Below, one piece after another: positions 6,655-25,585 of a DNA stretch of 43,167 nucleotides. A program made the position numbers and the translations under genes. The notes under the pieces are model-generated. The model had not been told where the DNA came from. It did no database searches and saw only the letters and a list, made by a program, of their open reading frames with translations. Origin of the DNA: Microcaldota archaeon (lineage in GTDB: Archaea > Micrarchaeota > Micrarchaeia > Micrarchaeales > CABMGC01); contig JAJZKP010000001.1 in the NCBI GenBank assembly GCA_021804105.1, forward strand, positions 1 through 43,167, given 5' to 3'. Positions within the stretch are counted from its first letter, which is position 1, and each line of letters starts with the position of its first letter.

Positions 6655-7947
6655 TCAGAGCTGCCTGAGTGCCTCTATGGGCTCAAGCCTTGACGCGCGC
6701 CATGCGGGATACACACCAGCTATTGCGCTTACAACAACAGCAACTAAGATAGCCAACAATATGGTTTCGGGGCTGAAGACAGGTGAGAAGGATATCGATG
6801 ATGAGCTGGAAGGTGCGCTGGCAGCACCTGCTCTCCCTCCCCCGAAGGCAACTCCACCGCCCTCTGCATGTGGCGCATTTCCTGCAGATGCCGCCGTATT
6901 GGTGCTGGTAGATGATGCATGCGAAGCAAAGAAGGAGAGGACGTATGCGCCTCCGGCTCCAACCACGATCCCCACAATGCCTCCCGCAACACCGATTATA
7001 AGTGCCTGTGTAAGGAATATCAGCAGTATATGATGGTTCTTGAAGCCTATCGACTTGAATATGCCGATGTCATGGGTCCTCTCGTATACTGAGATGAGCA
7101 TTATGTTCATTATCCCTATCGCGGCTACAAGCAACGATATCCCGGCGATTATCACCAGAAGGATGGTTATGGACCCTATTATTGATGACGCAGTTTGCGC
7201 TATTTCCTGAGTGGTGGTGACAGTTACCGAGCTCCCGTATATATTGGTTACCTGCTGCGCAACTCCGGCTACTGTTGATGTATTTGTAGCCTTGACCAGT
7301 ATTATGCTGTATGAGGACCTGTGCAGGAGCAGCTCCGCGGCAGGCATAGACATTATGACAGCGGTATCGACAGGCACTATTAGGCTTGAATATGGCTGTA
7401 GTATACCTACTATTGATATCGTAGTTCCAGTGGCACCTCTCCCAGATGTAGCATAAAGTGTCGCGGGATACCCGATCTTCAGGTTCTGTCCGCCTGCAAG
7501 GGAAGATGGAAAGGCCACGTTCTGCCCAACCACAGCGAGAGTCGATATCGAGTCTTGGTATAGTGATCCTGCATATAGGTTGACACCATTTAGGAGCTCG
7601 GAGAGATCCGTGGTAGATATGCCGAGTATGGTTACTGAGGTGTTCTGCCCGTTTGCTAGAACGTACCCTGAGCCTTCCAGCACAGGTATTACTGCGCTTA
7701 CGTTGGGCAGGGATGATAGTTCGGCGGTGTCAGTAACAGTGAATCCCTTGGGGCTAGATAGTATTATAGAAGTTGGGCCTAAGGTATTTAGGGAATTCTG
7801 GACGCTTGCGCTAATGCCTGCAGTCAACGATGTGAGTGCAACGATAGAAGCAACGCCTATCATTACCATTAGGATGGTAAGTACTGTCCGCACCTTCTTC
7901 TCCGTCAGATCCTTGTAGCTCAGCCAGAGAAGGTCGTTTAACCTCAT
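6655..7947 (-). CDS. ABC transporter permease, MacB/FtsX type
   Basis: The 430-residue protein has the MacB arrangement: an N-terminal membrane segment (about 20-42), a large extracytoplasmic domain of some 220 residues, then three membrane helices in an FtsX-like core (for example SSIIGSITILLVIIAGI and GIMNIMLISVYERTHDIGI). Such permeases do not usually form import channels; they transmit ATPase motion to an external domain, for export of lipoproteins, peptides or toxic compounds. The loop before the last helix holds an unusual Ser/Gly/Ala-rich low-complexity insert (about residues 340-385). It overlaps the upstream gene by ATGA and is last in the operon. Confidence 0.88.
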   Translation of the reverse strand: MRLNDLLWLSYKDLTEKKVRTVLTILMVMIGVASIVALTSLTAGISASVQNSLNTLGPTSIILSSPKGFTVTDTAELSSLPNVSAVIPVLEGSGYVLANGQNTSVTILGISTTDLSELLNGVNLYAGSLYQDSISTLAVVGQNVAFPSSLAGGQNLKIGYPATLYATSGRGATGTTISIVGILQPYSSLIVPVDTAVIMSMPAAELLLHRSSYSIILVKATNTSTVAGVAQQVTNIYGSSVTVTTTQEIAQTASSIIGSITILLVIIAGISLLVAAIGIMNIMLISVYERTHDIGIFKSIGFKNHHILLIFLTQALIIGVAGGIVGIVVGAGGAYVLSFFASHASSTSTNTAASAGNAPHAEGGGVAFGGGRAGAASAPSSSSSISFSPVFSPETILLAILVAVVVSAIAGVYPAWRASRLEPIEALRQL

Positions 7948-9173
7948 TTCATATGCCTGCCGATTTTCTTCCTCTCCCTGTAGTATAAGACCAGAAGCAC
8001 TATTATGATTATTATTAGCACCAGCACAAGAAGGCCACTGCCGCCTGATGCATGGCTCCTGATAGCAGTCACGTTTATTGCATTTGAGGCAAGAATCTGC
8101 ACCGGAACCGTTATGCGTTGGCTCACGTTCTGCCGCAGGCCGTTCAGGTAGTTTATCTGGATAGGAACCTGGTATACGCCGTTATGCACCGACGGGCCGG
8201 TCGTGGCTGAGAGAGTAACCGGAACTTGACTATCCGCACCGACGCTGCCAATGAACACGGAATTGCCGCCGTATGATGAAATGCCGTTTGCCGGAACTAT
8301 TGCAGCTGTCACGGCAGACGCTCCAGAAGAGCCGGTGTTGGTTAGTACTAATGATATCGAGAATATGCTTCCGGGAGACGGTACTGTGGGAGAGAGCGTG
8401 AGGCTTGATGAGGTTATGTTTATGATTCCGGTTGTCAATAGCTGCGTGTCATTCCAGGCCTGGCTCAGGGCCGTGCCGTTGTAATAGTCTATAGTTAGGT
8501 TCGCAGGGAAGCTCTGCGACGCATTCTTTGATATGTATACCTGCTGGTTCAGTATCATAGAGCTGTATGGTCTTATAGAGTTTATTTCTACTGGTTGGCT
8601 GCCAAGCAGTGCTGCATCGGATGCGGGTACATCGAGGGATATGGAAAGCGCGTTAAGCGTATATGTGCCCGTGTTTGTTATGTTGAGGGTAAGATTCTCT
8701 ATTGCGCCTGCAGTGATTATCTTCGGGGAGATGGTTGCAGTGATGGGTTCAGCGCATGCGCGCGTGGTGAAACTCATGTTCTGCACCTCGCTGTCCGTGT
8801 ATACTTCATAATAGAAATAATTTATGGTTATGCCGGTCGGGATATAGAGGGATGCATTTGCATCGACAAAGACCGGGAATCTGTATGTTTTGGCAGTATT
8901 CGCTGGCACGGTGCCTATGTCGAGTGTACTTGCAAGCATGCCGCGGGTTGTAACAAGGCCGAGCGTGGTATCTTGCATTGATCCTATATCACCGGTCCCA
9001 TGGTTGGTTATTGTGATTGGTATGTAATTCGTCTCGCCGCGGCAGAGTGTTGTTGCGTTTGTAGTGAGATTGTACCCAGGTGGTGCTGGCACTGGTGACG
9101 GCCCCCCAGTACCGGCATACACAAGGGACATTAGCGCAGCAGTAATCACCAGCATTGGCAATATGTTTTTCAT
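7944..9173 (-). CDS. Secreted, membrane-anchored protein with CARDB/NEW3-like Ig repeats (ABC transporter partner)
   Basis: The 409-residue protein has a signal peptide ([20 protein letters not shown]), an extracellular part of three or more similar beta-rich modules marked by 'T-N-x-G' turns ([29 protein letters not shown]), and a C-terminal membrane helix ([18 protein letters not shown]) with a basic tail. More than ten N-x-S/T sequons suggest heavy N-glycosylation by the AglB in this window. It overlaps the ATPase gene and the permease gene by 4 bases each, so the three are surely translated together. It probably serves as the outer partner of the transporter. The family call rests on pattern, not on a search. 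Confidence 0.75.
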
Positions 9174-9862
9174 TTCACAACCTCTTGTTTCTCCAATTTC
9201 CCGTCACGTATGTGTATTATGCTATCGCAATTCTTTGCGATATCTAGATTATGCGTGACTATTATTATAGTAACCTTCCTTTCCTTGCTCACTTTCTTGA
9301 GAAGCTTGATAACCTCGTCGCCTGATTTACTATCGAGATTTCCAGTGGGTTCGTCTGCCAGTATAAGCGTTGGATTGCTGACTAGAGCCCTGGCAATGGC
9401 TACTCTCTGTTGCTGCCCTCCGCTTAGTTGTGGTGGCCTCAGCCTCTTCCTATCAGCAAGGCCAAGGCTGGAGAGAAGGTTGCCTGCACGCTCTGCCCTC
9501 TCTTCGTTGGATAGCTGGGTTGCCATCAAAGGCAGCTCCACGTTCTTCTCAGCAGTAAGCCCCACTATAAGGTTGTATGCTTGAAATATGAAGCCGAGCT
9601 TTTTGTTTCTGAATTCAGCAAGCTCATTCCCAGTCATCTTGGATGTTGGCACGCCGTCTATGTAGACCTCTCCTTTAGTCGGCTTGTCTATTGTGCCGAG
9701 TATGTTCATAAGTGTTGACTTGCCACTGCCTGATGGGCCAACTATAGCCACAAACTCACCTTCGGTAAGAGAAAATGACACGCCCTCCAGTGCCTTAACT
9801 ATTATATCACCAGACCGGTATACCTTCTCAAGATTCTTAACTTGGACCGAATAATGAGGCAT
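9170..9862 (-). CDS. ABC transporter ATP-binding protein, MacB/LolD type
   Basis: The 230-residue ATPase has all motifs in order: Walker [11 protein letters not shown]-loop FIFQAYN, signature LSGGQQQR, Walker [14 protein letters not shown] and a switch His in IVTHN. The wording of these motifs is that of the MacB/LolD/FtsE branch, matching the FtsX-like permease two genes downstream. It is the first gene of a three-gene operon with 4-base overlaps. A TATA-like box 27 nt ahead of the ATG predicts a leaderless mRNA. Confidence 0.93.
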
Positions 9863-10061: not shown

Positions 10062-11603
10062 ATGTATAATAACCCTTTCCGGAGTAACATATTTGGTAGC
10101 ATGAGCAAGCATGGGAGCACTAAGGAGAAGATCCTTAAGCTGATACCAGAAGGAAAGACTAACCTTAGCGGGATCAGCGAGGCGCTCGGCCTTGCGCCTT
10201 CCACAGTCAGCAAGCATTTGCATGACTTAGAGAATGCAGGTATCATAGAAGCACGGGATAGGACATTTGCGCCGAAATGGAAGCACTACCGTGTGGTTAC
10301 CGCTAATGCCGAGGGCAGACAGGTGAGTCGGCCCATTATGAACAGGAGTACCGCTTGGAAATCCGGCATAATAATGATTGCAATAATCATTACTGCGATA
10401 GGGTATCTTTATCTGATCGGCAATTCGATATACGTGCCTATAAGCATAACGGACCCTCCACAGGTACCATACGGAACGCAGGCACTCTATATAAATTACA
10501 CATCTCTCAGTGTGCATGTAGTAGGCAAGGCAGGGGCATATTGGATGCCTGTAAACGCGAATGGAACCCTTGATCTTATGGGATTGATCAATGAAAGTGA
10601 GGTTATTGGGTCAGCAAGAATACCTTCAGGCGCGTCAATAGACACGATAAGGTTCAACATAAGCTCTGCGAGCATAATGATAAACAATTCGACTTACCCA
10701 GTGAGCCTTGCAGAAGACAACATATACGCAATTGTACAGGCAAACAGATCGTTCAATTCTACTACGGGGGTGCTGCTTGAACTCTCTCCGGTAGTCATAG
10801 AACAGAACATGATGAATTCTACTTCGTTCCTACTGCTACCATCAGCCAGGGCTGCATTGATGCCCTCTCCGGCAGGGATGCGCGGATCTGGGATAAACAA
10901 TCTGGTGTATATGCACGCAAGGTACCCACTTAGGAGCGAGTATGCAGATGCATTCTTTGGCAGGGAGGCGAATATAACAGTAAAAAGCGCGAGACTCCAA
11001 CAACATGGCAATTCGACAATGTTGGATGTTTCCTTATATAATAGCGGACCTGGCAATGTAATTGTTTATGGTGTTGTGCTTGGGGAGAACGGAGATGCAT
11101 TTACGAACAGCATATCAGGAAACAACGGTCCTCTGCGGGGATACTTTGTGGGCGCATCCATTTATGGAGGAGGGGACTGGGTGATAAAGCAGGTTAATGG
11201 TAGCGTGGTCATAAACAGCACCAACTTGGAGAGGGATATGCCATACTTCAGGAATGGCAGCGTGCTGGTAAGCCTGAAGACACCGGTAAACAACATTGTT
11301 ATAATAAGGTCAGGTGGCGGAATGCCGCTTCAGCAATGGGCTTTGGGCCCCGTCCAGGAGCTGAACCACACAATGTTTGTTGTATATGGCAACGGAACTA
11401 TGATCCAAATGAACAGGGACTACAATAGGCGTCTGTTATCTGCCCGTCCTGGCTACATGCTTGCCAGCATGGGCAGCATTACGCTATCGTACAATGGCAC
11501 GCAGTTGGTTGATGGCGAGGCGATTACTAACCAGAACCAGTATAGCATAGCAGTCATAACAGACCAAGGGCTCGTTGTGGCGAATGTGACCCAGGTCACT
11601 TAA
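10062..11603 (+). CDS. Membrane-anchored winged-helix protein with DUF4382-like ectodomain
   Basis: The 513-residue protein has an ArsR/MarR-like winged helix at about 15-80 (EKILKLIPEG, then ISEALGLAPSTVSKHLHDLE as the recognition-helix region), one membrane helix at about 104-122, and a large outer domain to the C-terminus. The part after the helix (YINYTSLSVHVVGKAGAYW, then LDLMGLINESEVIGSARI and SGASIDTIRFNISSASIMIN) resembles DUF4382 modules. Many sequons indicate glycosylation. It looks like a one-component transmembrane regulator that senses outside and binds DNA inside. It is divergent from the ABC operon, its likely target. The ATG at 10062 lies 27 nt after TTAAAA; an ATG at 10101 after TATAATA is also possible. 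Its end overlaps the convergent EMC3-like gene by 8 bases. Confidence 0.8.
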   Translation: MYNNPFRSNIFGSMSKHGSTKEKILKLIPEGKTNLSGISEALGLAPSTVSKHLHDLENAGIIEARDRTFAPKWKHYRVVTANAEGRQVSRPIMNRSTAWKSGIIMIAIIITAIGYLYLIGNSIYVPISITDPPQVPYGTQALYINYTSLSVHVVGKAGAYWMPVNANGTLDLMGLINESEVIGSARIPSGASIDTIRFNISSASIMINNSTYPVSLAEDNIYAIVQANRSFNSTTGVLLELSPVVIEQNMMNSTSFLLLPSARAALMPSPAGMRGSGINNLVYMHARYPLRSEYADAFFGREANITVKSARLQQHGNSTMLDVSLYNSGPGNVIVYGVVLGENGDAFTNSISGNNGPLRGYFVGASIYGGGDWVIKQVNGSVVINSTNLERDMPYFRNGSVLVSLKTPVNNIVIIRSGGGMPLQQWALGPVQELNHTMFVVYGNGTMIQMNRDYNRRLLSARPGYMLASMGSITLSYNGTQLVDGEAITNQNQYSIAVITDQGLVVANVTQVT

Positions 11604-14966: not shown

Positions 14967-15392
14967 ATGAGCAAGACAGTTCTGGCATTCGGCTCTTTCG
15001 ACATAGTGCACCCCGGCCATCTCAGCTATCTTGAGAAGGCGAGGAAGCTCGGGGACAGGCTCATTGTTATTGTAGCAAGGGATTCTAGCATAAGGATGTT
15101 CAAGCATAGGAACCCGGCATTTTCAGAGGGGGATCGGGTCAGGCTCATAGGATCGCTGAAGCCTGTTGACCTTGCTGTGCTGGGCAATAGGGTGAAGGGG
15201 AAGGAAGGCATATACAAGATACTGAAGCGGTTCAGGCCGGGAGTGATAGCCCTAGGTTACGACCAGCGCGTGGACGAGAAGGAGCTGAAGGCGCGGCTTG
15301 CCGAGTACGGGATAAAATCGCGCATAGTAAGGATTGGGATGAGGAAAAGCGAGGCTAGGTACAAGAGCTCAAAGCTTTCCAGATTTCTTTGA
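14967..15392 (+). CDS. ribL: Archaeal FAD synthase (RibL-type cytidylyltransferase fold)
   Basis: The 141-residue enzyme has the nucleotidyltransferase signature GSFDIVHPGHLSYLEKA with HxGH at 15-18, and the conserved IALGYDQRVDEKELKARL region of archaeal RibL. RibL joins FMN and an NTP to give FAD (or the CTP analogue) and lacks the riboflavin kinase domain of bacterial RibF. The product could feed flavoproteins such as the geranylgeranyl-reductase-like protein in this window. The 3' end overlaps the convergent kelch gene by 24 bases. Related cytidylyltransferases are an alternative, but the C-terminal SEARYKSSKLSRFL resembles RibL. Confidence 0.85.
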   Translation: MSKTVLAFGSFDIVHPGHLSYLEKARKLGDRLIVIVARDSSIRMFKHRNPAFSEGDRVRLIGSLKPVDLAVLGNRVKGKEGIYKILKRFRPGVIALGYDQRVDEKELKARLAEYGIKSRIVRIGMRKSEARYKSSKLSRFL

Positions 15393-16622
15393 GCGCGAAG
15401 TTCTCCTTGAATATATGTAGTATAGAGCAAGCGCTATGACTACAACAGCTGCGGCGGCATACCAAACACTTGATGGAACTGCGGATGAACTGGCCCTTGT
15501 GTTGCCGGATCCGACGGTAGAAACTGCAGTTATGGTAGTGCTGCTTACATTTATGCCTGTGGCATTCTGCGACACTGAGCTTGCGGTTGAGGTAGGCTGC
15601 ACCTGGCCAAAGGAAATGTCCATGTAATAGGTAGCATTGGTATACGAAGTGCCGTTGTAGCCGCCAGTACAGTAGAGACGCTGGCTTGATGCGGTGCATC
15701 CCGCCCCTCCTATTGGAGTTGGATAGTTGAGCAGCCGCTCCCATGCGCCAAGTCCTGACACATATATTGGAGCTGCATATACCCTGTCAGAGTACCCGGT
15801 CTTGTTGTATCCGCCGACACAGATAAGGTACCCGGATGATATCGAGCATGATATATAGGAAGCGCTTATTGGATATGCGCTTGCATCCCTCCATGCACCC
15901 AGGCCTGTTGAGTTTAACGTGGTAAAGAAGGTCGAGTTGGTGTAGCCCTGCTTGGAATATCCGCCAACGCAGTAGACATAGCCGTTGGCAGACTGGCATG
16001 ATGCCGTGTTTATTCCGATAGGGTATGGGGATGTTGATGCCCACGGAGTCAACGCACTTGAATTCTTCGGGTTCACCATGACATTCCCTGATATGCGGGT
16101 GTAATAGGCTGCAGCGGTATTATTGCCTGAAGGGTTTGCCCCACCGATGCATGCGATCTCCGCTCCAGAGGAGATGCAAGATATTCCAGATACAAGGACT
16201 GGATACGGGGCTAGGCCTCTCCAGTAGGAGAATGCCCCATCAGATAATGCGGATGTATATGTAAGATTTGTATATGACGAGGAATTGTATCCGCCAATAC
16301 AGTATGCGCTGCCAGAAATCTGAAGGCAGCTCTGCCCGAATGTGTCCATTGGGTATGGCTGCTGGGGGGACCAGGCGCCAAGGCCTTGGCTGGTTACTGC
16401 AGATGAATACGTGCTATTCAGGAAATACGTTGAAGAACCAGCTATGCAGTACACATATCCGGAATAGAAGATGCACTGCTGTCCGCTCACATTCAATGGA
16501 TACTGGGATGTCGCAGTCCAGTTCACATTAGCAGCGCCTGTAGCCTGCACAAGGCACAGGAACGGCAATACGAAGACCAATAGGAATGCATTGCGTGTCA
16601 TGCGCTCATTCTGGTATCCCAT
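15369..16622 (-). CDS. Surface kelch-like beta-propeller with one Cys pair per repeat
   Basis: The 417-residue protein has a signal peptide (hydrophobic stretch at about 12-29), six propeller repeats, a Ser/Thr-rich stalk and a C-terminal membrane helix (YAAAAVVVIALALYYIY) with a basic tail. Each repeat holds 'YP' followed by C-x8-C-x-G-G or a close variant, for example CLQISGSAYCIGGY and CSISSGYLICVGGY. The Cys spacing is identical in all six, implying a disulfide in each blade. Many sequons suggest N-glycans. A later ATG (codon 8, 16601) is an alternative start. It precedes no obvious partner; the GT4 and AglB genes lie upstream on the same strand. Ligand unknown. Confidence 0.78.
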   Translation of the reverse strand: MGYQNERMTRNAFLLVFVLPFLCLVQATGAANVNWTATSQYPLNVSGQQCIFYSGYVYCIAGSSTYFLNSTYSSAVTSQGLGAWSPQQPYPMDTFGQSCLQISGSAYCIGGYNSSSYTNLTYTSALSDGAFSYWRGLAPYPVLVSGISCISSGAEIACIGGANPSGNNTAAAYYTRISGNVMVNPKNSSALTPWASTSPYPIGINTASCQSANGYVYCVGGYSKQGYTNSTFFTTLNSTGLGAWRDASAYPISASYISCSISSGYLICVGGYNKTGYSDRVYAAPIYVSGLGAWERLLNYPTPIGGAGCTASSQRLYCTGGYNGTSYTNATYYMDISFGQVQPTSTASSVSQNATGINVSSTTITAVSTVGSGNTRASSSAVPSSVWYAAAAVVVIALALYYIYSRRTSRSKKSGKL

Positions 16623-16631
16623 TCTGCATTT

Positions 16632-17771
16632 TTATTCCTGACTGCCGGACTTGCTTACCTTCCTTGCAAGCGGGTCAAACTTATTGAAGAATGCGTGCCA
16701 TGAGTAATACTCTTCGACCCTGCGCCTTCCGAGCTTTCCCATGCTTTCTGCCACAGACTGATGCTCCGCTATGAATTCCATGCGCTGGGCCATTTCCTGT
16801 GGGGAGTTTACCAGGAAACCGGTTTTTCCGTCGAGGATGGTTTCTGTAGGGCCACCCTCGTTAACCGATATCACTGGTTTGTAGCTTGCCATTGCCTCGA
16901 GTGGTATGAACCCGTAGTCCTCGTTTATTGCGGCGAAGAGCACTCCGCTGCATCTGGAATAGAGGTTCCGCATGGAGCTTTCTGTGATGTTCTCGCGTAT
17001 CTCTATATTGTAGCCGGACGAGGATGCCTTTATCTTCTTGAGATAAGCCATATGCTCCGGGTCTTTTGATACCGCACCTGCGATGACTAGCCTGTGCTTC
17101 TTGCCGGATCTTTTCGCAAACTGCTTGAATGCATCTATGACATAATCCTGCCTCTTGTTGGCCACTATCCTTGAGGGATAGAAGAAGAACTTGTCGTCTC
17201 CGTTGTTGGAATATTCCTTTGCGTTTATTCCGGGGTTTATTACATTAGCCTTTACTCCGAAGTACTTCTTTATGCGCGAATTGGTCACGGCGCTGTTTGT
17301 TGCTATGGCCTCTATCTTCCTGACTACCCTGCCTGCTATGAACTTGTAGGTCTTCACCATTGCAGCGTAGAGTAGCTTGTCCCTTGTAGACCTGCCTTGC
17401 ATCCTAACCGAATAGAGGTCGTAGACCTCGCGCGGAGGAGTATGGCAGTACCAGAGCACCCTGCTGTTCCTCTGCCGTATCCATTCGCTTGGGGAGATGT
17501 GGGGATTCAGCACGTCGTAATCTTCCCCTATCTTCATCCTGTAGAAGCTGTATCCGTACCTGAGCCCCTGCGAGGCCCTGTATGGAAGCATCGATATCGA
17601 TGCCTTAGGTTTAAGCACCTCAACATCCAGATCGGAGAACTCGGGGAAGGATAATTTCCTGTCGTATTCCAGGGTCAATATCTTCGCGTCGTAATGTTTT
17701 GCTATCTCGAGTATTACCCTGTCTACGCCGCCCATCAGGTTTAGATATGGCTGGATTACAAGCAGTTTCAT
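16632..17771 (-). CDS. GT4-family glycosyltransferase
   Basis: The 379-residue enzyme has a GT-B fold. The N-terminus shows LNLMGGVDRVILEIAKHY (Gly-rich acceptor loop), the middle FFFYPSRIVANKRQDYVIDAF starts the nucleotide-binding half, and EDYGFIPLEAMASYKPVI with the E-x7-E pair and NEGGPTETI mark GT4. It resembles ALG2/ALG11-like mannosyltransferases. Its place just downstream of aglB on the same strand (33 bases after its stop) suggests it builds the lipid-linked glycan used by AglB. The sugar donor cannot be told. Confidence 0.88.
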   Translation of the reverse strand: MKLLVIQPYLNLMGGVDRVILEIAKHYDAKILTLEYDRKLSFPEFSDLDVEVLKPKASISMLPYRASQGLRYGYSFYRMKIGEDYDVLNPHISPSEWIRQRNSRVLWYCHTPPREVYDLYSVRMQGRSTRDKLLYAAMVKTYKFIAGRVVRKIEAIATNSAVTNSRIKKYFGVKANVINPGINAKEYSNNGDDKFFFYPSRIVANKRQDYVIDAFKQFAKRSGKKHRLVIAGAVSKDPEHMAYLKKIKASSSGYNIEIRENITESSMRNLYSRCSGVLFAAINEDYGFIPLEAMASYKPVISVNEGGPTETILDGKTGFLVNSPQEMAQRMEFIAEHQSVAESMGKLGRRRVEEYYSWHAFFNKFDPLARKVSKSGSQE

Positions 17772-17804: not shown

Positions 17805-20800
17805 TTATCCGGGCATTACATAGCTGTTGTTCACGTAGCTTGGCTTTGGAAGGACTTTCGGGAGCGTGCCCGTGAAGTTGTCAAGCGAATATATCATTAT
17901 ATTGCTTGTGGAGTTCACGTAGTTTATACCGGTGAAGTTGCTCGGGTATGCAAGCGTGAACCCAGGAAGCTTGCCGAGGAAGAACCCCCTGTAATAGTTG
18001 GAGTTGTAGAACTGTGATGGCGCGTTGGTTATTGTATCGTTAGGGCCATTTGGCAGGTATATGAGTATGAAGGTGTAGAAGGGAGTGCCTCCGCTATTGA
18101 ACTCTCCCTGGAAGAGCTGTGTTGTCACCACCGCATTGGACTTTGTCCCGTTGGAGTAGACGAGCCTTGTTGGAGCGCCAGACTGAAGGAAGGATGTTGG
18201 CAGGCAGTAGCTCTCGTTCGTGGCAGATTGGCCGATTATGGTTATTGTCCTGAGCAACGACTCGTTTGCGCTGGAATTGGATATGGAGCAGAAATCACTC
18301 ACACTGCTTACGTTTGCAGGCACAAGCAGCTCTGCAGGGTCGTGCGCGACCTCGCAAGGCGAGGTGCCGAGTATGAAGCTCTGGTTGTAGAGCTTGCCCT
18401 GCTTCTCTGCATATGCCTGCGATGTCTGGTTCGTATCTATGCATGCAAGGAAGTCAAGCGCGCCCCACTTGGGCACCAGCTGGTTGTCAAAGACCACATA
18501 CTTAGACTGCATTGTGTTCATGAATGTGGCAAGGTTTGCAGGACCGAAGCCGCTCGCGTTGCCCAGGACGTATCTTGCCGCTACTGCATAATCGAGCGTT
18601 GGAACTGCGTTATCTCCCCTTATGACAGCGTTCGTATTGCCGAACCAGTTGATCCAGTCGCCGTAGTCCCACCATGACAAGACCCTGGGGCCGTATGGAC
18701 CTATGTTCTCCCGCATCCATGCAAGGGCGTTGAGCCAGTAGACAGGCACTGTATTGCAGAACAGATCCGCACCTACCTGATTACCGGTGTTATTTATTGT
18801 TGTGCAGTTCTGGTTGAGAGCAGCTGGAATAACACCGAGGCCTATTGAACCGACGAATTCAGCGATTATTATAATTGCGCCTACTGCGTACACTGCCCAC
18901 GTATGCCATTCCGGGCCATTCTTGCTGCGCAGGTATATCATTAGCTCTCCGAAAATGACACATATGGCGATGATGTATGCGACACCGAAGTGGGGCAGGT
19001 ACTTGACTTCTGACAACCCCGCGAATGCCAACGGCAGAGTGAAGGCAAGCACCATTATTCCAGACTGGGAGTTCTTGAAGAAAATGGCATATAGCTCTAT
19101 AGCCACAAATGCTATCATAACAATCCAGAGTATGATCTGCAACCCGCCTATGCTTGCCGCGATGATGCCGAATCCGTTGATCCCGAAATCAAAGTTAAGC
19201 CCCGTGGGAGCATATTCCTGCACTGTCATGAACAGTGGCGTAGAGGGTGTTGTAAAATGACTGCTCAGGCTGAGATACGCTTTGACGGGCTTGCCGAGCG
19301 GAGTTGCCAGCACAAGTAAGATTATAACTATGGCAAGCAGGACCAGCCATAGCAGGTATAGCCTGGCGTTCAGCTTAAGCGATGCGACTTTGAACTTGTT
19401 GAGCAATACAGGCAGGTATTGGAATAAGGCCACGATGAGCAGCGCAGCTACAGGGAAGCTAATTATAGTCGGCACGCCGAAATAGCTTGGTATCCTGTTC
19501 TGCAGGGTTGCGGCATAGGGTATGTAGAGTATGAAGAGTATCGTGAATGCTGCGATGACTATTATATTCATCTTGTAGAAATCGCGCATATCTTTGTTCT
19601 TGATCACATTGAAGAGGCCTTGTGCAAGTATGTAAACTGCAAGGACTGCTGCGGGCACGGTATAGTATTGCGCGCCAAGGAAGTTTGCTGCGAATGCAAG
19701 GCCTGCAAGGATCGCGTACCTTGGCTCCTTTGGGTTCTCAACCGCAAGAAGGTAAGTGCCAAGGAAGAAGAATAGCAGCAATATGCCGAAAGGCTCGAGG
19801 AGCTGCTCTCCGGCTATGAATGTACTTATCAGCGTAGGCATTGCTGTAGCAAGAACCGCGCCGACTATGGCAGGGAAGTCGCCGTACAGGTGATAAAGCA
19901 GCATGAATACAACGAAGACCAGGAGTGCTGCTGCAATAGGGGGATAGTAGCTGCTGACCAGGCTGATCAGGTTGGTGTTTGGCGGCGTCTCTGAAGATGC
20001 ATGACCTGATGCCAGTGGCACTGCAGGGCCAAGCGATGAAGGAACTGGGCCTGCAATGGTATTCTGTGCCTGAGGCCCTGCGACATCATACCAATAAGCC
20101 TCGATGTATGGTATGAGAGGCTCGGCCCTGTGATTTGTCCCATTAACTGCTGTTGGCCATGCAGATGTATCCAGATACAATTGGTATCCGTACGTGAGTA
20201 TGTACTGGGTACTTACCATGTCGAAATATGGGTCGAACTCGAAGTATCTTGGGGCAACATCAATGTTGGAGAATCGTGTTACGAAAGTTACGGCCATCAG
20301 GCCTATTATGAAAAGGTATAGCAGCCATCTCTTATTGACTTGTGTCTTCACTGCGTCGCCTGAGGAGCTTGCAGTAGCAGCCTGCAGGAGCATGCTTTCC
20401 TCATGTTCATGCTGCTCGTAAAGCTTCCTCTCCTGGCTCCTGTGTGAGGCCATTACTACATTCCTTTCTTCGGGTCCGGCATCCTTCAAGGCTTCCATCT
20501 CTTCTTCGTGGCGCCTTGCGAGGTCGCGCTCCTCATCCTCATGCTGCTTCATGACTTTGAGGTCCACGCGCAGTTTCTGCATTGTGGATCTGATTTCCGA
20601 GAGCCTTTTCTTGTAATCTGATTCCATTGCCCTGAGATTTGATGATGCAGGCACCTTTGCCGGGTTGAGAAGCCCGTTCAGAGTGATGTCCTTGAAGGCT
20701 CCCTGCTGTATCGAGAATATTATGCCGACTATGGTTAGTATGATCACATTTGCATTGTACAGCCCAGAGGAGAACGAAAAGACTGAAGCTACAGGTATCA

Positions 20801-20972
20801 GATATGACTCAAGCCAGACGAACATTGGCGGGATTATCATGCCCAGTATGAATCCTATTATTGCTATCTCGAATAGCGTGAATTTTGTTTTCTTAAGCAG
20901 TGCCAAGGCTATGAAGAATCCCGGAGCCATTATGGATAAAAATCCTACCAATATTGCTACGAACAACGACAT
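17805..20972 (-). CDS. aglB: Oligosaccharyltransferase AglB (STT3) with extra N-terminal membrane/coiled-coil region
   Basis: The 1055-residue membrane protein transfers a lipid-linked glycan to Asn in N-x-S/T. The STT3 part starts near residue 215: the catalytic EFDPYFD is near 245, about a dozen membrane helices follow, and the WWDYGDW sequon-binding motif is near 765 in the outer C-terminal domain. Before this sits a part not usual for STT3: three membrane helices (about 1-95) and a highly charged coiled coil (about 108-200) rich in His and Glu, such as HEDEERDLARRHEEEMEAL. The ATG at 20972 is about 25 nt after a TATA-like box, so the extension belongs to the predicted mRNA. The GT4 gene follows. 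Confidence 0.93.
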   Translation of the reverse strand: MSLFVAILVGFLSIMAPGFFIALALLKKTKFTLFEIAIIGFILGMIIPPMFVWLESYLIPVASVFSFSSGLYNANVIILTIVGIIFSIQQGAFKDITLNGLLNPAKVPASSNLRAMESDYKKRLSEIRSTMQKLRVDLKVMKQHEDEERDLARRHEEEMEALKDAGPEERNVVMASHRSQERKLYEQHEHEESMLLQAATASSSGDAVKTQVNKRWLLYLFIIGLMAVTFVTRFSNIDVAPRYFEFDPYFDMVSTQYILTYGYQLYLDTSAWPTAVNGTNHRAEPLIPYIEAYWYDVAGPQAQNTIAGPVPSSLGPAVPLASGHASSETPPNTNLISLVSSYYPPIAAALLVFVVFMLLYHLYGDFPAIVGAVLATAMPTLISTFIAGEQLLEPFGILLLFFFLGTYLLAVENPKEPRYAILAGLAFAANFLGAQYYTVPAAVLAVYILAQGLFNVIKNKDMRDFYKMNIIVIAAFTILFILYIPYAATLQNRIPSYFGVPTIISFPVAALLIVALFQYLPVLLNKFKVASLKLNARLYLLWLVLLAIVIILLVLATPLGKPVKAYLSLSSHFTTPSTPLFMTVQEYAPTGLNFDFGINGFGIIAASIGGLQIILWIVMIAFVAIELYAIFFKNSQSGIMVLAFTLPLAFAGLSEVKYLPHFGVAYIIAICVIFGELMIYLRSKNGPEWHTWAVYAVGAIIIIAEFVGSIGLGVIPAALNQNCTTINNTGNQVGADLFCNTVPVYWLNALAWMRENIGPYGPRVLSWWDYGDWINWFGNTNAVIRGDNAVPTLDYAVAARYVLGNASGFGPANLATFMNTMQSKYVVFDNQLVPKWGALDFLACIDTNQTSQAYAEKQGKLYNQSFILGTSPCEVAHDPAELLVPANVSSVSDFCSISNSSANESLLRTITIIGQSATNESYCLPTSFLQSGAPTRLVYSNGTKSNAVVTTQLFQGEFNSGGTPFYTFILIYLPNGPNDTITNAPSQFYNSNYYRGFFLGKLPGFTLAYPSNFTGINYVNSTSNIMIYSLDNFTGTLPKVLPKPSYVNNSYVMPG

Positions 20973-24599: not shown

Positions 24600-25481
24600 T
24601 CATGGTGCGATGTATACATTAGTCCATTGGTTAGTATAGGTAACTCCGTTTGCTGCGCCGTTATTGTTGTTGCCACTATAGTCGTCCGTATTGCCGTTTA
24701 GAGGCCACCAGCCGAGAAGGTTCTGCAGCTTTATCGGCACGCCGCCTATGCCCTCGAGATAGAGTGCCCGTATATCGTTTGCGGAAAGCGAGGCGTTGTA
24801 GACCTGGACATTTGATATCATTATTCCATCCGGGGGGTTACCTGCATAATGTAGGTTTGGGCCTGGAGATCCGATATAGTTCTGGTTTGCGGTCAGGTAG
24901 TATGATACTGTTGCAGAATTTCCGCTGCCAGGCTGCAAGTCCGTATATCCTTCTGCTGCTGCACCATTATATAGGACTGCCGCGTAAAAGACCCAGTCTC
25001 CGGTTGGAGATAAGGAGCTGGAACCATAAGCATAATAATTACTATATATTGGTGTATCAAACCGTGTGCCGAATTGTAATGGTGGACCTGGTACCATCAA
25101 GTCTTCAAAACCATAGCCAGCTGCGTTATGGAATCCTATAAAATCATAATAATTAGGCGATATTCCTGAAGGGAAATAAACCCATGCGGTTATCGTAACA
25201 GAGCCGATTGTAATTGGCATCTGCGGTAACTGAACCCTTCCACCGTTAAACTCTGCCACATATTCTGGCATCTCGCCGTTGCAGGTTCCCGATAACCCTA
25301 CGCCATAAGAGCTTCCAGGGCCATCGGGCCTGAAAACCTGGCATGACCCCGGCTGCGCACGTGGCGCAAAGTTTCCCGAATTAAATATCCCAAGGTAATA
25401 GAGCACTCCGAGGACTATCGCAATTACGAGTATAGCCCAGCCATATGTCATCAGGTATTCCATTGCTGATTGGGTCTTCAT
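24600..25481 (-). CDS. Pilin-like protein with class III signal peptide and LamG-like domain
   Basis: From the ATG at 25481 the protein starts MKTQSAMEYLMTYGWAILV, an archaeal class III (prepilin) signal: Gln at +1, Glu at +5, then a hydrophobic helix that would form the pilus core or a membrane anchor. The outer part has a Cys pair and a concanavalin/LamG-like jelly roll (GSVTITAWVYFPSG, then IMISNVQVYNASLSANDIRA and LLGWWPLNGNTDDYSGN). Such domains bind sugars or proteins. Earlier in-frame ATGs exist at 25511 and 25538; the last lies within 15 nt of a TATA-like box (25546-25555) and is excluded. Confidence 0.83.
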   Translation of the reverse strand: MKTQSAMEYLMTYGWAILVIAIVLGVLYYLGIFNSGNFAPRAQPGSCQVFRPDGPGSSYGVGLSGTCNGEMPEYVAEFNGGRVQLPQMPITIGSVTITAWVYFPSGISPNYYDFIGFHNAAGYGFEDLMVPGPPLQFGTRFDTPIYSNYYAYGSSSLSPTGDWVFYAAVLYNGAAAEGYTDLQPGSGNSATVSYYLTANQNYIGSPGPNLHYAGNPPDGIMISNVQVYNASLSANDIRALYLEGIGGVPIKLQNLLGWWPLNGNTDDYSGNNNNGAANGVTYTNQWTNVYIAP

Positions 25482-25585
25482 GCCAGCCAACGCGAAATAA
25501 TGTGGTTTCATTCCGAGCATTAATAGTAGTTGCTGCACAAAAAAAGCATAAATAGCCGATAGTTGCCTTGCGATGTGGTTGTTGG

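Follow-up and report, generated by a model that had tools for sequence, protein, structure and literature searches.

The window, the 43,167-nucleotide stretch of DNA analysed here, carries at 15369..16622 on the minus strand a gene for a 417-residue kelch protein (Pfam Kelch_1 1.6e-7; PF24681 1.3e-16) with a pair of cysteines in each blade. Its parts, all given as minus-strand coordinates, follow in a simple order: an N-terminal hydrophobic segment that is probably a signal peptide (residues 12-30, 16533..16589; model helix 12-23, hydropathy 2.37), a six-bladed propeller (residues 35-337, 15612..16520, from AlphaFold pLDDT and VIA-align), a Ser/Thr-rich stalk (residues 340-383, 15474..15605; low pLDDT, <50 at 359-383) and a C-terminal membrane helix (residues 385-413, 15384..15470; model helix H385-413, hydropathy 2.11). 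Each repeat follows the pattern W..xx.YP......C-x8-C-x-[GA]-G, and the repeats recur mostly every 50 residues. From blade 1 to blade 6 the pairs are C50-C59 (16446..16475; model strands 49-53 and 56-63), C99-C108 (16299..16328; 98-102 and 105-109), C149-C158 (16149..16178; 148-152 and 155-159), C209-C218 (15969..15998; 208-212 and 215-219), C259-C268 (15819..15848; 258-262 and 265-269) and C309-C318 (15669..15698; 308-312 and 315-319). The cysteines are thus nine positions apart in six of six blades, as an earlier note on this DNA had stated, and six C-x8-C motifs arose in none of 20,000 shuffles of the protein's residues (mean 0.37, maximum 4). The x-G-G turn that the same note placed by every pair is found as GG after strand B in five blades, and fails in blade 1, which has C-I-A-G. 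A thirteenth cysteine, C23, is part of the hydrophobic segment at the N-terminus, the other 12 all being paired. The other 32 open reading frames (ORFs) counted in the window hold 57 Cys in 11,742 residues and three C-x8-C motifs altogether.

Upstream of the kelch gene by 9 bp lies a GT4 glycosyltransferase gene (16632..17771, minus strand; Pfam PF00534 1.1e-25), and 33 bp upstream of that a gene for an AglB/STT3-like oligosaccharyltransferase (17805..20972, minus strand; sub-cut-off PF21436 5.6e-4, TIGR04154 4.3e-13). The order on this strand is AglB-like, GT4, kelch, and the neighbourhood is operon-like. A GT4 gene also adjoins the kelch gene in four genomes of the same genus (L006/L057, L007, L008, L015/L064), in three of which a thermosome gene lies on the other side. 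The window protein contains 14 N-glycosylation sequons against 5.9 +/- 2.0 in shuffles; together with the nearby oligosaccharyltransferase gene, itself a prediction, this makes glycosylation of the protein likely and agrees with the earlier proposal of a glycosylated surface propeller. The stalk that this proposal included appears in the model as a low-pLDDT Ser/Thr stretch followed by the membrane helix. VKOR, a disulfide-forming enzyme family whose usual partner is Thioredoxin_4 (DsbA-like), is encoded on the contig of the window (G000:C26:87936-88292) and in 17 of the 21 relatives-search genomes, among them all 11 good assemblies; Thioredoxin_4 scores above cut-off in none of these 21. The plus-strand gene at 10062-11603 in the window encodes 513 residues with an N-terminal ArsR-type HTH and 20 N-glycosylation sequons; the product may be a regulator anchored in the membrane, with one domain outside the cell. 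On the minus strand three genes abut at 6655-9862, the second of which matches CARDB/NEW3 weakly and has 13 sequons.

The fold is that of a six-bladed kelch propeller, as first suggested from the repeats. Both Pfam profiles score above their cut-offs (Kelch_1 31.1 bits against 20.1; PF24681 61.1 against 50), and the AlphaFold2 model, computed from an alignment with 34 relatives, has a mean pLDDT of 86.5, with propeller blocks mostly at 95-98 and a single inter-blade block at 71. The model aligns well with the solved kelch structure 5yy8 (VIA-align Z 37.7, rmsd 2.0, 272 residues aligned), and among the matches listed the nearest solved structures are kelch domains. With known kelch propellers (PF01344; Keap1, KLHL12, NS1-BP and the designed SAKe6) the window protein has in common the six blades, the strand-B GG and the Tyr/Trp landmarks, and its model matches them with Z 34-38 across about 255-285 residues. 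Those proteins are intracellular eukaryotic or designed ones, whereas the window protein is predicted to lie outside the cell, and in the KLHL12 and KBTBD10 alignments the first Cys of the pair is absent while the window protein has C-x8-C in every blade. In the model, the hairpin of strands A and B is predicted to have a two-residue turn in all six blades, with a register that would make both cysteines direct partners; their proximity is read from this strand register. The pair would occupy a non-hydrogen-bonded hairpin site, the kind favoured by cross-strand disulfides. Structure prediction thus agrees with the intrablade pairing foreseen in the earlier note, the cysteines being opposed across the hairpin in six of six blades by register.

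To see whether the pair behaves as a unit across the family, every Cys was masked, a blade HMM was built, and residues were looked up only afterwards. The blade alignment comprised 115 ORFs, left from 137 after removal of near-duplicates, L029_1, L060_0 and L145_0 having been excluded beforehand. Both columns are filled in 693 blades, of which 663 carry the two cysteines, 21 only the second, one only the first and eight neither. The 663 is inflated, as the seeds and most sequences were picked by a Cys-containing pattern; blades from the same protein, moreover, do not count as independent. The spacing is nine in 651 of the 663 two-Cys blades, and the remaining 50 columns have about 0% Cys. The eight double losses compare with 0.4 under independence (Fisher p 3e-11, overstated since the blades are related), which indicates that blades mostly keep or lose both cysteines together; these counts retain two double-loss rows unlike whole blades (L109, L100) and many second-Cys-only rows that represent half blades at the N-terminus or a shifted alignment with a Cys close by. 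The Kelch_1 profile, which is blind to the pair, matches 33 of 290 genomes of the phylum, and the pair is present in 29 of the 30 best Micrarchaeota-phylum loci; the sole pair-free one, L146, is an ordinary kelch. As a control we took 20 of the 35 weak matches to a Gagatemarchaeum protein, which matches 41 of 250 genomes of the class Nitrososphaeria, six of them strongly. These 20 ordinary Nitrososphaeria kelch proteins have no Cys at either pair column in 115 blades, so that the earlier statement that ordinary kelch repeats are without such pairs holds in this control. Because the register is cross-strand, the pair is conserved and ordinary kelch is free of it, one disulfide per blade, formed by oxidation of the paired cysteines, is very likely.

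Within its own phylum, the window protein has matches in 81 of 295 genomes. The relatives search gave no match with the window protein alone; relatives were collected with a degenerate DNA pattern of two successive Cys-pair blades. This pattern matches 110 stretches among genome contigs, nine of them without an ORF having two units. By title, 51 are Micrarchaeota, 38 Nitrososphaerales, Thaumarchaeota or Gagatemarchaeum, and 4 Thermoplasmata; the rest are 2 Nanoarchaeota, 1 Marsarchaeota, 3 other archaea and 11 bacteria. Eight of the bacterial stretches are without an ORF having two units, as is the Micrarchaeota stretch L037. L044, from a Myxococcales bin, reads as a family member, and L060, a bacterial stretch of low complexity, was rejected. 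A further bacterial protein, from a Nitrospirae bin (L052), has six C-x8-C blades in an otherwise different kelch, with Cys-rich repeats preceding the blades; its pairs are possibly convergent. Plasmid and phage records gave no tblastn match to the Cys-pair kelch, and the sole viral-contig locus, L145, was set aside as an ordinary kelch with few pairs. The pattern search and taxonomic range called for in the earlier note thus reveal a large archaeal family of C-x8-C blades and, judged from the sequences, the Cys pair is a family trait common to Micrarchaeota, Nitrososphaeria and Thermoplasmata bins. It is not a symbiosis marker, since groups outside Micrarchaeota also carry it. The backbone of the Micrarchaeota/Nitrososphaeria tree is unresolved. 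The genome of the window also encodes two near-identical N-anchored Cys-pair paralogues (G000:C16:58121-59026 and G000:C17:2909-3847), one of them on a 4.7 kb contig, which may be true duplicates or reflect strain mixture in the assembly.

Architecture could be classed for 75 of the 115 ORFs, with 26 truncated, 11 long and 3 with too few units set aside. A hydrophobic or pilin-type segment stands at the N-terminus of all 75. Thirty-four are N-anchored and start with strand D, 24 are of the window type (strand D start and C-terminal membrane helix), two are pilin-type with a strand D start, and the propeller of 15 starts with strand B and ends with strand A, nine of these being pilin-type and six otherwise N-anchored, although one of the six, L091, merely ends in a stray Cys and is not a true B-start form. 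A B-start chain stops directly past the first Cys of a split pair. Our script flagged 20 ORFs as B-start, and in 18 of them it located the unpaired second Cys upstream; L115, one of the two failures, does have this Cys, at 886, and the other failure is L091. All 14 permuted relatives in alignment A2 have both C79 and C381, and in the model of relative L047 they are placed at strand positions equal to those in whole blades. Some relatives are circular permutants, with the sixth Cys pair split between the propeller ends; a C79-C381 disulfide, if formed, would close the ring covalently. Other variations include frames of up to 2,847 residues with many Cys-pair blades (for example on G007 contigs C8, C11 and C12), apparently several propellers in tandem, and glycine-rich tails (GSGGxFxGGGGP) after the last blade in L022 and L027.

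The pilin label rests on a motif of the archaeal pilin type, for example QSAMEYLMTYGWAIL, that is present in 17 of the 115 ORFs and would be a class III signal. Seven relatives scanned outside the window genome, five of them with the motif, match no pilin family in Pfam, and the window protein itself is without the Q-S-A-x-E-Y/F motif before its N-terminal hydrophobic helix. Of the 21 genomes of the relatives search, 19 have a match to a prepilin peptidase profile; the window genome, whose assembly is incomplete, has none. Elsewhere in the window, a 312-residue protein (24600-25538, minus strand) combines a pilin-type N-terminus (QSAMEYLMTYGWAIL) with a lectin-like Laminin_G_3 domain, the same plan of shaft plus binding head as in the pilin-kelch relatives.

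What the propeller does at the surface can be approached from its faces. In kelch topology, a chain that enters or leaves at strand D, B, C or A does so on the AB/CD face. Since the stalk would leave at that face, the BC/DA face would point outward. Most glycosylation sequons lie on that outer face. In the family, BC loop length has an sd of 2.78, compared with 0.49 for CD and 0.23 for the hairpin of A and B, and 183 of 374 sequons sit in the BC loop. The strongest rival explanation gives the propeller a chiefly structural role, as a building unit of the cell envelope or of an S-layer lattice; it would bind nothing specific, and its disulfides would do no more than harden it. A widespread family, many paralogues and a heavy sequon load would suit such a unit, as would the listing of kelch among the surface-layer proteins of a Micrarchaeota relative in the part of Golyshina 2017 available to us; however, the patchy occurrence of the family in the phylum, the differing lengths of the BC loops and the pilin-fused relatives, in which a linker carries the propeller at its end, make it unlikely. 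Residues 31-385 of the window protein contain 0 His, 2 Glu and 5 Asp, and the family blade alignment has no conserved His, Asp or Glu column; the composition speaks against both an enzyme and a metal site. Some secreted kelch propellers are enzymes, and relative L113 has a weak NANM profile match below cut-off, but a disulfide-stabilised secreted enzyme of the galactose oxidase or sialic-acid epimerase type is very improbable given this composition, the lack of any conserved charged or His residue across blades, and the best 50 matches of each structure search, which are nearly all binding-type or designed kelch domains, the Arabidopsis epithiospecifier protein taking one row. Least probable of all is that the cysteines bind metal or act as redox switches and not as structural disulfides, for which their regularity and conservation and the metal-rich or acidic habitats of many bins (guessed from isolate names) could be cited, against two Cys per site, the missing His and conserved acidic columns, and the cross-strand hairpin register.

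We favour, with somewhat better than even confidence, a stapled, stalked surface propeller that recognises a partner. The window protein would be a type I membrane protein whose signal peptide sends the kelch propeller outside; in each blade a single cross-strand disulfide would tie together A and B, the innermost strands; and the Ser/Thr stalk and membrane helix would hold the propeller at the surface. With the stalk departing from the AB/CD face, the BC/DA face would most likely recognise the partner, be it another cell, the S-layer or a surface glycan. Adhesion or recognition is the most likely role, if by a modest margin over even chances, and cell-cell contact by the window protein is plausible.

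Comparable systems are known in part. PfCyRPA of Plasmodium, a six-bladed propeller of another, sialidase-like family, has intrablade disulfides in five of six blades and none in the blade split between its N and C termini, as described in the available part of PMC5349852, unlike the window protein with a Cys pair in six of six blades and its permuted relatives with a pair in the split blade too. For Candidatus Mancarchaeum acidiphilum Mia14, surface-layer kelch/YVTN/PKD proteins were proposed to serve cell-cell contact (Golyshina 2017, PMC5498576); there too a Micrarchaeota relative has kelch at its surface, the location predicted for the window protein. The word disulfide is absent from the main text of that paper, and the kelch description in the portion available mentions no Cys pairs, permutation or pilin-kelch fusion. 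PilX2 of Saccharibacteria, a minor pilin with a seven-bladed RCC1 propeller proposed as an adhesin of the episymbiont (PMC12206443, available in part), resembles the pilin-fused relatives, and not the window protein, in attaching a propeller to a pilus component, but is bacterial and RCC1 where these are archaeal and kelch. The open-access literature, as far as it was accessible, yielded no paper on an archaeal Cys-pair or pilin-fused kelch.

More tentatively, and with rather less than even confidence, the covalently stapled propeller could be an interchangeable binding head, carried on a membrane stalk or on a type IV pilin-like shaft in Micrarchaeota and some soil archaea, with the permutants' sixth disulfide joining the first and last strands so that pulling could not unzip the ring. 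This would be the archaeal equivalent of the propeller adhesins that bacterial episymbionts carry on their pili. The family probably touches or grips neighbouring cells. It is a naturally occurring example of a propeller with one staple in each blade, to which the permutants may add a disulfide that closes the ring. A head that is probably disulfide-stapled, on membrane stalks and pilin shafts, provides concrete, expressible adhesin candidates, which bear on the attachment of ultra-small archaea to their partners.
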